From positions 1-64,000 of the forward strand of contig CALUTM010000001.1 of assembly GCA_944323705.1 (NCBI GenBank): DNA of 64,000 bases, written 5' to 3'. The notes under the pieces were generated by a model. It worked only from the letters and a program-made list of their open reading frames with translations. It made no database searches and was not told the DNA's origin. Source of the stretch: Candidatus Gastranaerophilales bacterium. GTDB lineage: Bacteria > Cyanobacteriota > Vampirovibrionia > Gastranaerophilales > Gastranaerophilaceae. Below are positions 8,782 through 12,880 of the stretch, one piece after another. Made by a program: the position numbers and the translations under genes. Position 1 is the stretch's first letter. Each line of letters begins with the position of its first letter.

Positions 8782-10614
8782 ATGGAAACATTCGAGACCG
8801 AAACGCACGCAAAAGAAATTGATACAATATATGAAATGTCCAATAACACAATTGATGATATTGTGTTTGATGATGCGGATTTGATGTACGATTTCAAAAC
8901 AAAATTCAGATTGATAAGAAAAGCTGTTTCCTCCTTCTTGAGAAAGAAAAAACAGAAAAATTTTAAAGAAATTTTGTATATAACACTAAAAAACATCCCG
9001 TCTGATTATATTTTGGCTTTTCAAAAACAATACCCCGATAAAGAAATAAAAGTCTTGCAGCCCGTTGACAAAATAAAAGGCAGTGAGAAGTTTCGGTTTG
9101 AATTTTTTTTGCAAAACAGAATGAATACGGCAGTGTTGTACGAACTTCCGCTTAACAGAGATAATATAAAAGTATACGGGCTGTATTCAACGGCTTTTTC
9201 CGGTCAGGATATGACAAGGTTTCAATATCTTGCACCGTTTATTAAGGCTGCAAGAGTTTGTGCGGAAAAATTAAAACCCGATATTGTTCATGCAGATAAT
9301 ATCCCGTTTTTCCTCGGGGCAGAATTTGAACGCAGAAATAATCTTAAAGTTTTTCAAACCGCAGATGATTTTTCTCAAATAGAACTTAATAAATTAGAAA
9401 GTTTTTGGGCAGCAATAAATCTGGTTAACAGGCAAAATATGAAAAAACTTTGCAGAGATAAGATGATTAAAAAATGTATTGCATCGCTCTTTAATTTACA
9501 TAATTCAAAACGGTTTTATCAGATGCGGGAATGTCTGGAGTTCATATACCAAAACTATTTCAAGTTTCGCAAGTATATTGATAAATGTGAAGATATTGAT
9601 GAAAATATTTTGTTTAACCGAATGAATGCCCGTGTGATTAAACTCTTTCCGCAGATGGCATACGGCGATGAAGTGTTTTATAATCCCATGTTCTCTTCCA
9701 TAAAAAAAGCCGATTCATGGGGCACTGTATCCAAAACGTATTATCGGGAAATTTTTCAGCGACCTGAACTTTCAGGGAAAATGTACCCGAGAATTGAAAA
9801 AACAAAATCAAAAAGCTCATACATTTCCTTTGGCTGCACAATTCCAAAAGTCAGACTCTATCAACCGTTTAATTCGGAGAATTTTAGAGAACTGCGTTTG
9901 CGAAACAAAACTTATATTCTTAAAGAATTCTCTGAAGAGAGAATACGAACCAAATTTACCGATATAAGTTTGTTTTTATCAGAGAATCATGCAATCTGCG
10001 GCTATTTAGACTCTTTTTATAATGCCCCGCTTGTGTTTGCCGCATTTACGCCCGATATATTTGCTCAGGGTGTTGATATCGCACTAAATACGATACTCAA
10101 ATTGTTTGAAGAAAACAAAAATATTCAGGTAATAGTTAATATTTCTGACGGGTTAAAAAATCATTATATAAAATCGTGGGTCGAGTTTTTAAACAAAAAT
10201 TCTGCGTTTAAAGGTCGTTGGTTATTTATTGACGGTGAGGTCAATAAGGCACAATTTTTTGCTTCTTCCGATATGACTTTTCTTCCGCAAAGGATGAATG
10301 TGACAACTTCGGACCATTATGTAGCAATGAAATACGGATGTATTCCCATTGCATCAAGAAGCGGAATTTATAACGACACAATTGCGGATATCTTTGATGA
10401 CATAACTAACGGATGCGGATTTAAAACAAAAACATCATTGTTCACTAATGATGACGGCAACCAAATTTATCTGTCAACCGTTCTCAAGGCTTTGAACTTG
10501 TATACCAAAAATCCGGCAAGTTGGAATTTATTGATAAAAAATGCCATCAACTATGATTCAAGTTGGAATTTTGAAAGAATTGAAAAGTTTAATGAAATTT
10601 ACGAAAATCTGTAA
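8782..10614 (+). CDS. Divergent glycogen/starch synthase-like glycosyltransferase
   Basis: This 610-residue protein has a GT-B layout resembling GT5 starch/glycogen synthases: KPDIVHADNIPFFLG near residues 170-185, a central ADSWGTVSKTYYREI near 308-323, and a C-terminal FLPQRMNVTTSDHYVAMKYGCIPIASRSG near 505-533. The latter corresponds to the nucleotide-sugar site (usually PSRFEPCGLxQxxAMxYGxxP). The N-terminal KTGGL nucleotide-binding motif of true GT5 enzymes is not visible, and the usual Glu of the C-terminal site is replaced by Thr/Ser residues. Catalysis may therefore differ or be lost. The first ~70 residues are an acidic, lineage-specific extension. Confidence 0.65.
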   Translation: METFETETHAKEIDTIYEMSNNTIDDIVFDDADLMYDFKTKFRLIRKAVSSFLRKKKQKNFKEILYITLKNIPSDYILAFQKQYPDKEIKVLQPVDKIKGSEKFRFEFFLQNRMNTAVLYELPLNRDNIKVYGLYSTAFSGQDMTRFQYLAPFIKAARVCAEKLKPDIVHADNIPFFLGAEFERRNNLKVFQTADDFSQIELNKLESFWAAINLVNRQNMKKLCRDKMIKKCIASLFNLHNSKRFYQMRECLEFIYQNYFKFRKYIDKCEDIDENILFNRMNARVIKLFPQMAYGDEVFYNPMFSSIKKADSWGTVSKTYYREIFQRPELSGKMYPRIEKTKSKSSYISFGCTIPKVRLYQPFNSENFRELRLRNKTYILKEFSEERIRTKFTDISLFLSENHAICGYLDSFYNAPLVFAAFTPDIFAQGVDIALNTILKLFEENKNIQVIVNISDGLKNHYIKSWVEFLNKNSAFKGRWLFIDGEVNKAQFFASSDMTFLPQRMNVTTSDHYVAMKYGCIPIASRSGIYNDTIADIFDDITNGCGFKTKTSLFTNDDGNQIYLSTVLKALNLYTKNPASWNLLIKNAINYDSSWNFERIEKFNEIYENL

Positions 10615-10668
10615 ACTACCCTGTAATATCTATGAGAGGATATTTATCCTTATTGACCAGACAGAGAG

Positions 10669-10698
10669 TTGACAAAAATGAAAAAATAATTGTATACT
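10669..10698 (+). promoter_or_regulatory. Consensus sigma-70 promoter of the serine leader
   Basis: TTGACA (10669-10674), an 18-base spacer and TATACT (10693-10698) form a strong vegetative promoter. The expected transcription start, about seven bases after the -10 box, coincides with ATG 10705, so the leader ORF would be translated from a leaderless mRNA. Confidence 0.75.
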
Positions 10699-10704
10699 GA
10701 TTCT

Positions 10705-10767
10705 ATGCAAAATTTATACTTAAACAATTCATCATCCTCATCATCCGGGTCGTCGGGACTTTGGTGA
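10705..10767 (+). CDS. Serine-rich 20-residue leader peptide
   Basis: This ORF of 20 codons plus TGA has six consecutive Ser codons (10729-10746), then Gly-Ser-Ser-Gly-Leu-Trp. Eight of 20 residues are Ser, using TCA, TCC and TCG. It has no Shine-Dalgarno sequence but sits at the predicted transcription start. CGGGAC near its 3' end (10754-10759) is complementary to GTCCCG in the 5' arm of the downstream terminator (10811-10816). A ribosome stalled on the Ser run would leave CGGGAC free to block the terminator, while a ribosome at the stop codon would cover it. This is classic attenuator geometry. That it senses seryl-tRNA is inference. Confidence 0.6.
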   Translation: MQNLYLNNSSSSSSGSSGLW

Positions 10768-10807
10768 TATTTTGATGTGAAGTTTTAAGTCAAACCAAGT
10801 TTTTCAT

Positions 10808-10845
10808 AAGGTCCCGTTTATTATTAATAAACGGGACCTTTTTTT
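10808..10845 (+). terminator. Strong intrinsic terminator/attenuator before the 506-residue gene
   Basis: A 33-base near-perfect palindrome (10808-10840, core GGTCCCGTTTATT) is followed by a T-run. It lies between the serine leader ORF and ATG 10862, and no other promoter is evident after it. Expression of the downstream gene would then need read-through. Confidence 0.85.
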
Positions 10846-10861
10846 GTTGAAAGGGTAAAAT

Positions 10862-12382
10862 ATGAAAATTACAAACAATAATTTAAATTTCAAAGGAGCA
10901 GGAGTGCTGACGGCAGCGTTAAGATGCTGTGACAAGAACGAAATAGTTAACGCAGTCGGACTTGATATTGGTGCAATGGTTATCCCGAGAACGTACTACG
11001 ACACTAAAGCAAGAAATAAGTATGCCGGTGCCGAAACTTTTTTCAGAGAAGCTTGCGGAACTTTTATTAACTGTTTATCTGCCGGAATTTTTGCGGGAAT
11101 AATTGCCAAAATAGCGGCAAAAGATTATAAAATTAATCCTAAAAGTTGGTACACCCGAGATTCTTTAGACACGCTGAATGCAGCTTGGAACGGAACTGTA
11201 GAGGGATATGCGGGAAACGTATTGAAAAATCTTTCAGGGCATGACGGGAGAAAAATCAATGAATTTAAAAACATCGATTGGAATAATATCGAATGGATTG
11301 ATGAAAAAGGTTGGGAAAAAATAAACTGGAAAAACGAAGATTACAAAACCACTGCTGAAAATCTGAAATCAAAAGAGGGGTTTATAAATACTCTTACAAA
11401 AATAATTAAAGACAAAAATATTTCACAAACAGATAAAAAGAACGCCCTATCTATAATGGAGATGAGACTCACCAATGCACTCGGAGCGGAAAGAAATACT
11501 GAAGTAAATATTAACGGTCACAAGCTTTCCGCAAAGTTAGAAAACATTCTGCGTGATACGGTTGATATGGGGAAAGATGTTCTCGGGAAAAAAGATACGG
11601 AACAAATAATTAATAAAATTAAAAAAGTTAATAAGATAAAGACTTTTGGTGCCATTGCGGGCTCTTGCGTGCTCGGACTTACTAATCAATACATAAATCG
11701 CAAAATCACCGAAAAACGAACAGGAAAAAAGGGATTTGTAGGCGATGTTGATTTTACGTCAGAATTAAGAAAAGAACTTAAAAAGGATGAAACTCTTTGG
11801 TACAAAAAGATTGGTGCAAGTGTTTTAATGGCAGGCATGGTATTCAGTGCAATGGGGGTAAAAAACCTTAAGCAGTTTGCCCGAAAACTTGAATTTTCCG
11901 GGCCCGTTACAAGCGGCAATGCTATTAAAACCGTTTATGCTTCAACAATCATCGGAAGATTTTTGGCAGCAGATAACGGAACCGAACTTAGAGAATCTAT
12001 GACAAGAGATTATTTAGGTTTTCTTAACTGGCTTGTCTTGGGCGGTTTTGTTGCCAAAGGGGTTGCAAACCTTTTGGACAGAAAAGGGGAAAATTTATTT
12101 AACTATAGTCCGAAAGCCGACAAAGCACATGGAGTTATTAAGCCGAACCCTCAATCCCGCTCGCTCGGGTTTAGAAAAATAAAGTTTTGGCTTAATGATA
12201 TGACGCTAAAGACTCATAATGAAATAACCGCTAAGGGAAGCAAGTTTGCGAATAAAAATATGTGGAAACTTAACCTTGCACATATATCGGGAATTGCATA
12301 TTCTGCAATTGTTCTGGGATTATTGCTTCCAATGTTAAATGCACGTATTACACAAAAACAGGCTAAAAATTATAAAGTTTAA
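10862..12382 (+). CDS. Lineage-specific protein with NFKG motif, attenuator-controlled
   Basis: This 506-residue protein is of unknown function. Residues 9-15 read LNFKGAG, the clearest copy of the N-terminal motif in this window. Hydrophobic segments occur near 70-90, 258-276, 320-338 and 480-500, separated by lysine-rich helical stretches. A repeated short theme, IDWNNIEWIDEKGWEKINW, lies near 138-156. GAAAGGG about eight bases upstream of the ATG is the ribosome-binding site. The gene sits behind a leader peptide and terminator, so its expression may be conditional. It resembles the protein at 4135 in overall plan. The 3' end overlaps the convergent gene at 12363. Confidence 0.65.
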   Translation: MKITNNNLNFKGAGVLTAALRCCDKNEIVNAVGLDIGAMVIPRTYYDTKARNKYAGAETFFREACGTFINCLSAGIFAGIIAKIAAKDYKINPKSWYTRDSLDTLNAAWNGTVEGYAGNVLKNLSGHDGRKINEFKNIDWNNIEWIDEKGWEKINWKNEDYKTTAENLKSKEGFINTLTKIIKDKNISQTDKKNALSIMEMRLTNALGAERNTEVNINGHKLSAKLENILRDTVDMGKDVLGKKDTEQIINKIKKVNKIKTFGAIAGSCVLGLTNQYINRKITEKRTGKKGFVGDVDFTSELRKELKKDETLWYKKIGASVLMAGMVFSAMGVKNLKQFARKLEFSGPVTSGNAIKTVYASTIIGRFLAADNGTELRESMTRDYLGFLNWLVLGGFVAKGVANLLDRKGENLFNYSPKADKAHGVIKPNPQSRSLGFRKIKFWLNDMTLKTHNEITAKGSKFANKNMWKLNLAHISGIAYSAIVLGLLLPMLNARITQKQAKNYKV

Positions 12383-12770
12383 ATGCAAATTTTTGCAACT
12401 TTGTCATTTTGGGTATAATTTCACCCAATGTCACAAAACGGCAGTCAATCAAATTCATACGTGCCTTACCCGTTTTGGGATAAAGTTTTTTGTACTGAGA
12501 TACAAAAATGTCATTTTTTTCCTTCACTTCCGGGAAATTAAACATTATCTTCTGATTTGTTAAAAATTTTGGAGAATCAGGGATTGGGCTTTGTTGTTCC
12601 CTTCTTGCCAATAAACCTCTTGTGGGATTATGTATACAATCATCCAAATGATTAAGTGTCGATTCTATTTGTTCTTTTGAAACAATGGAGTCGGAGTCTA
12701 AATTAGCATTGTGCAGAAAAGCATTTTTTCTTATACTGTCATACGGACTTGCACCTTCCGTTATTTTCAT
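12363..12770 (-). CDS. Hypothetical 135-residue protein
   Basis: The ORF extends to 12803, but the internal ATG at 12770 (MKITEGASPYDSIRK) has GAAAGGGG seven bases upstream and is the likely start. The product is soluble, with no signal peptide, membrane helix or known domain. It contains IESTLNHLDDCIHNPTRGLL near the middle. It is convergent with the tagged 506-residue gene, overlapping it by 20 bases, and divergent from mraY. Similar MKIT... starts are common to lineage-specific proteins here. The function is unknown. Confidence 0.55.
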   Translation of the reverse strand: MKITEGASPYDSIRKNAFLHNANLDSDSIVSKEQIESTLNHLDDCIHNPTRGLLARREQQSPIPDSPKFLTNQKIMFNFPEVKEKNDIFVSQYKKLYPKTGKARMNLIDCRFVTLGEIIPKMTKLQKFAFKLYNF

Positions 12771-12880
12771 ATTTATCCCCTTTCGGTGTAGTAATTCTAA
12801 CACTTTTTGGGTGGTTTAGTCAATATATACATCATTTTCTTTTTGAGGTAATATGTAGGATAATAAGGAGAAGTTTAATT

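Follow-up and report, generated by a model that had tools for sequence, protein, structure and literature searches.

A probable serine-codon transcription attenuator upstream of an uncharacterised protein family in Candidatus Gastranaerophilales

The window analysed here, a 64,000-nucleotide stretch of a Candidatus Gastranaerophilales genome, carries on its forward strand a short serine-rich open reading frame (ORF) between a promoter-like site and a terminator, followed by a 506-codon gene. The putative promoter (10669–10698) has a -35 box TTGACA (10669–10674), an 18-nt spacer and a -10 box TATACT (10693–10698); it matches the consensus at 11 of 12 positions, scores higher than any other promoter-like site of the region in a consensus scan, and its TTGAC.../TATACT elements are kept in relatives. 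Only 6 nt 3' of the -10 box lies the ATG (10705) of a 20-codon leader ORF, MQNLYLNNSSSSSSGSSGLW, which ends in a TGA at 10765 (10705–10767). Exactly eight of its 20 codons specify serine (codons 9–14, 16 and 17), and the putative regulatory run reads TCA TCA TCC TCA TCA TCC GGG TCG TCG (10729–10755). The last codons of the ORF form segment 2 (TCGGGACTTTGG, 10753–10764), in which CGGGAC (10754–10759) is complementary to GTCCCG inside the terminator 5' arm, segment 3 (AAGGTCCCGTTTATT, 10808–10822). Segment 4 (10826–10845) comprises the terminator 3' arm AATAAACGGGACCTT (10826–10840) and the T-run TTTTT. This 15-bp terminator (10808–10840) is the sole terminator-like site within 9500–12800. It ends approximately 15 nt before the ATG (10862) of the downstream gene (10862–12382), whose Shine–Dalgarno sequence is AAAGGG (10850–10855). 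A sequence-only reading had placed the consensus promoter, the ORF with its eight serine codons, CGGGAC and the terminator here, and all were recovered at those positions; its view that the gene has no other visible promoter also holds, as the short terminator-to-ATG interval leaves no room for one.

Between the leader stop codon and the terminator lies a conserved segment, TTTTGATGTGAAGTTTTAAG (10771–10792), defined by the leader alignment. Within it, TTTTGATGTG..GTTTTTAA is strongly conserved in Ser-type leaders, most of which show no assigned pairing for it. At gathering score, Rfam gave no match in the window, including to T-box elements or other riboswitches. The nearest model was His_leader (RF00514), with 28.6 bits and an E value of 0.0056, below its 49-bit gathering score. 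Taken by itself the window sequence is suggestive only and chance is possible, since promoter-like sites are no commoner in the region than in its shuffles (12 versus 10.9 ± 3.0). It is conservation that settles the matter.

The product of the downstream gene is a 506-residue protein with an N-terminal NFKG tag. Its AF2 model is mostly helical and of good confidence (pLDDT 82), and it is probably an uncharacterised membrane protein. The protein belongs to no Pfam or NCBIfam family, and a Foldseek search of the PDB with the model returned nothing below E 0.28, the value of its best match. Membrane pyrophosphatase was considered as a structural relative and rejected, its best VIA Z of 6.3 lying within background. 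The target in the window is an uncharacterised protein and not a serine-biosynthesis gene, as had been proposed from the sequence alone.

The earlier reading had suggested looking for the same leader before homologues of this gene, and it is conserved there. DNA searches detected the element in at least 12 genomes of the same genus, with an orthologue of the 506-residue gene downstream in every clear case, and in a single copy in the source genome. A protein search found homologues in 216 of the 241 genomes of the order. We compared 80 loci from named genomes, almost all of which are Candidatus Gastranaerophilales or uncultured MAGs from gut and rumen; a strict script recognised a leader ORF with a Ser or Cys run together with a terminator at 73 of them, and leader-bearing orthologues occur in many genera. 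Among the seven that failed is locus L171 (the same as L035), where the run is broken by an Asn (MNNIYITNNTSSNCSKFLSGLE). Very distant homologues (L090–L097) mostly lack a recognisable leader. When a covariance model of the leader was run against the 241 genomes, its strong matches preceded the 506-residue gene family by coordinates, with two exceptions, G217 and G251, described below. Some matches, with E values of about 1e-5 to 1e-4, lay in front of unrelated genes (L138, L141, L142, L146–L152 and L154) and were dismissed on inspection as terminators after ordinary ORFs; weak matches in the source genome, such as that at C3:71743, are ordinary terminators.

Several observations suggest that the leader ORF is translated. 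Its reading frame is maintained across leaders of 19–30 codons, while the two alternative frames stay open along the whole of the ORF in just 6 and 3 of 71 distinct leaders. In the 65 distinct relatives whose promoter could be recognised, the distance from the -10 box to the ATG is 6–9 nt in 20, of which 19 have no Shine–Dalgarno sequence, and exceeds 15 nt in 41, of which 34 have one. Leaderless and ordinary starts thus appear to replace each other, which argues for translation of the ORF. The window ORF itself is probably translated leaderless, from the ATG 6 nt after the -10 box. Leaderless initiation, claimed by the earlier reading, therefore stands for the closest clade but not as a general trait of the family.

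In close relatives the codon run is serine, TCA and TCC are favoured and AGY codons are avoided. TCA and TCC together make up 79% of leader serine codons compared with 40% in the large ORFs of the window, and AGY codons 7% compared with 29%. The sensitivity of attenuators is known to depend on the choice among synonymous codons (PMC1183508). In orthologues approximately 45–57% identical, and in a paralogue group, the run consists instead of cysteine codons (TGC/TGT). On a tree of 82 proteins a single change suffices to account for the two states, and rooting with the Cys paralogue makes Ser look like the derived state. The two exceptions to the covariance-model result carry Cys leaders. In G217 the leader (MRTLFVKNLICCCCKFSC, L276) stands before a cystathionine-lyase/synthase-like gene and cysteine synthase; the G251 leader (L277) is followed first by a methyltransferase and then by that same pair of genes. 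A Cys leader before cysteine synthase is the textbook arrangement of classical attenuation, and it anchors the amino-acid reading. A link to serine auxotrophy was not found: full-length serA is absent from the source genome and present in other Ser-leader genomes, and so does not track the Ser leader. In a single case (L275, G040:C129), a distant homologue of the 506-residue protein is preceded by a leader with a run of Gln codons (MLSFTSKLNAQQQQQQ...), whose ORF ends in a copy of the terminator arm.

The exchange of Ser and Cys runs also bears on two other ways of reading the element. It might encode a nascent-chain arrest peptide, so that the ribosome would be stalled by the peptide itself, on sensing a small molecule or the state of the membrane, and not through tRNA charging; the recurrence of an N-terminal M-x-N-L-Y/H-F...NN and of a Lys after the run would fit such a peptide. 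We regard this as very unlikely, because the two runs interchange, the residues behind them change freely along with the RNA helix, codon choice is biased among synonymous codons and the Cys form precedes cysteine genes. Alternatively, the promoter, a transcript of approximately 140 nt and the terminator could constitute a stand-alone small RNA that ends at its own terminator and whose UCCUCC-rich tract pairs in trans with Shine–Dalgarno sequences, since this pyrimidine-rich tract looks like a series of anti-Shine–Dalgarno seeds. In Cys-type leaders, however, the tract becomes UGUUGCUGU, so that an anti-Shine–Dalgarno seed would be lost while the amino-acid run is kept. The maintained frame and codon-position pattern, and the association of the element with a single gene family or with cysteine genes, likewise leave the small RNA with very little chance of being correct.

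Amino-acid attenuation would require competing RNA helices, and these were evaluated in 66 distinct aligned leaders, with 500 shuffles and a partner slid by 1–3 columns as controls. In the terminator helix, 94.9% of cells were paired and 111 showed double changes. The antiterminator formed by the end of the ORF and the terminator arm (2:3) had 88.4% of cells paired, with 64 double changes, and the 1:2 helix beside the codon run had 85.7% paired, with 27. For each of the three helices, neither the paired fraction nor the double-change count was reached by any of the 500 shuffles, counts that are not probabilities and that overstate significance because the aligned leaders share ancestry. With the slid partner, paired fraction and covariation score were far lower for all three. 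The terminator and antiterminator, two mutually exclusive pairings, therefore both covary, as does the 1:2 helix, although the window's own 1:2 hairpin is weak. The attenuation logic put forward from the window sequence is thus supported by the covariation of three competing helices across the family.

Gene order around the element is also informative. Upstream in the window lies a gene for a 610-residue glycogen-synthase-like protein (8782–10614), which ends approximately 55 nt 5' of the promoter; it is co-directional here and divergent from the leader in close relatives, indicating that the locus was rearranged around an intact leader–gene unit. The upstream neighbour is divergent at L010, L011 and L013 and a different gene at L014, L016, L021 and L024, and leader and terminator are retained at all of these. 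Because upstream neighbours differ or diverge, the leader–terminator unit belongs to the downstream gene. One could also see in the hairpin no more than the terminator of the 610-codon gene, and in the short ORF a product of chance. The orientation and proximity of that gene in the window fit this idea, but the divergent neighbours already refute it, the neighbours of other kinds, the covarying antiterminator and the retained leader ORF speak against it as well, and it is almost certainly wrong.

To follow how a ribosome would influence the competing pairings, we folded the leader with a ribosome footprint at successive codons. In the window, an A site at codons 9–12 permitted a 9-bp antiterminator of -18.2 kcal/mol, which was weaker with codon 13 in the A site and was gone from codon 14 onward. 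With the ribosome in the run, at least six pairs with the terminator arm were possible in 73 of 73 relatives, compared with 47% when linkers were shuffled. With the ribosome at the stop codon, at least six such pairs formed in just 18 of the 73, with a mean of -1.1 kcal/mol. As the 15-bp terminator stem is more stable than the 9-bp antiterminator, the mechanism needs the usual kinetic order of folding.

Collectively, our results suggest that the element is very probably a transcription attenuator of the trp/his type, operated by a translating ribosome and responsive to charged tRNA-Ser. Comparison shows which parts are present, how they covary, which codons are chosen and that the Cys form stands before cysteine-synthase operons; from these we infer stalling and readthrough in vivo. 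Under this model, the transcript would start at or just 5' of the leader ATG and a ribosome would enter the 20-codon ORF. With ample Ser-tRNA, the ribosome would reach the stop codon and cover segment 2, leaving segments 3 and 4 to pair and end transcription 5' of the 506-codon gene. When serine is short, the ribosome would stall at codons 9–13 and leave segment 2 available for pairing with segment 3 ahead of the synthesis of segment 4, so that no terminator forms and the gene is transcribed. If the leader were not translated, an extended 1:2 helix would hide segment 2 and the gene would be off. Exchange of the Cys and Ser runs in relatives would change the amino acid that is sensed and leave the switch itself unchanged.

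Weaker matches to the leader model led to a second family, of 416-residue membrane proteins. A His-run leader, typically LQKHHHTHHINP (HHHTHH), was present at 30 of 30 inspected loci (L236–L265) of this family, and an antiterminator was predicted at 24 of the 29 with a script-found terminator, compared with 33% when linkers were shuffled. The source genome has such a leader as well (MAYLSGIHHHTHHTNPKGLGVLCSLIE; L271, G000:C3, at approximately 16.8 kb). hisG was absent from 17 of 17 searched genomes of the genus, including the 99% complete source genome, and present in 11 of 11 genomes of other families. Since hisG is missing in the genus, a His-responsive gene is unlikely to serve biosynthesis there by the normal route. 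The 416- and 506-residue families are possibly related (hhalign P 0.002, probability 13%).

Some homologues of the His-leader gene (L290, L291 and L293, in G043, G046 and G038) have instead an Arg-rich leader (MRIRKYQ[KR]RCF..TN) with a terminator. A mini-ORF ending in NLxWGL* or similar lies directly 5' of paralogues at L290–L294 and at L273 in the source genome (G000:C27). At L290, L291 and L293, its DNA ACTCAAG can pair just 5' of the gene's Shine–Dalgarno sequence, an arrangement that resembles a translation attenuator or an arrest peptide.

The leaders described here share with the trp, his and leu attenuators of Proteobacteria (Rfam His_leader RF00514, Trp leader) a short ORF in which codons for one amino acid are clustered, alternative 1:2, 2:3 and 3:4 helices and a terminator 5' of the gene. 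They differ in their Ser or Cys codons, in their uncharacterised membrane-protein target and in the leaderless start of the nearest clade. In mycobacteria, polycysteine leaderless short ORFs have been described as Cys attenuators (Shell 2015, PMC4633059; Canestrari 2020, via PMC13236596). They are likewise short, leaderless ORFs in which an amino-acid run controls downstream genes, but they are described as acting by translation attenuation and for Cys only, whereas the window leader has a transcription terminator and Ser codons. In Rhodobacterales, the uORFC-8-2 motif 5' of cysS is a predicted transcription attenuator with tandem Cys codons (PMC8632094); it resembles the present leaders in both respects but differs in phylum and target and has no Ser form. 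In the B. subtilis sinR gene, UCN codons slow ribosomes under serine starvation (PMC3862929). UCN codons are common to both systems, but sensing in sinR acts inside a coding gene, without a leader or terminator. A literature search that covered few subscription papers returned neither a transcription attenuator based on serine codons nor any trp/his-type attenuator from this phylum; nor did it return an attenuator family that swaps the sensed amino acid between orthologues. The attenuation mechanism itself is already known; the novelty appears to lie in the use of Ser codons, in their exchange with Cys and in the genes controlled.

The sequence-only reading had a single serine leader before a gene with no evident connection to serine biosynthesis. 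With the Ser/Cys swap, the Cys leaders on cysteine-synthase operons and the His leaders added to this, the case for amino-acid sensing becomes much stronger, and the odd target is a less isolated example. The codon run of an attenuator tells which amino acid is important for the gene under its control. Judged from its regulation alone, the 506-residue protein may plausibly, at a little less than an even chance, help to acquire the amino acid that is sensed. That attenuators for Ser, Cys and His precede large families of uncharacterised membrane proteins throughout the order offers a direct test of a role in uptake or supply, and would show classical attenuation in non-photosynthetic relatives of cyanobacteria. 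More tentatively, we suggest that the uncharacterised membrane-protein families of Gastranaerophilales, for which no relative of solved structure was found, might serve to acquire amino acids. Each would be controlled by a dedicated attenuator (Ser, Cys, His, perhaps Arg and Gln), and the sensed amino acid would have switched together with the role of the protein. If true, this would reveal nutrient-uptake systems of a new class in a phylum whose amino-acid biosynthesis is reduced.
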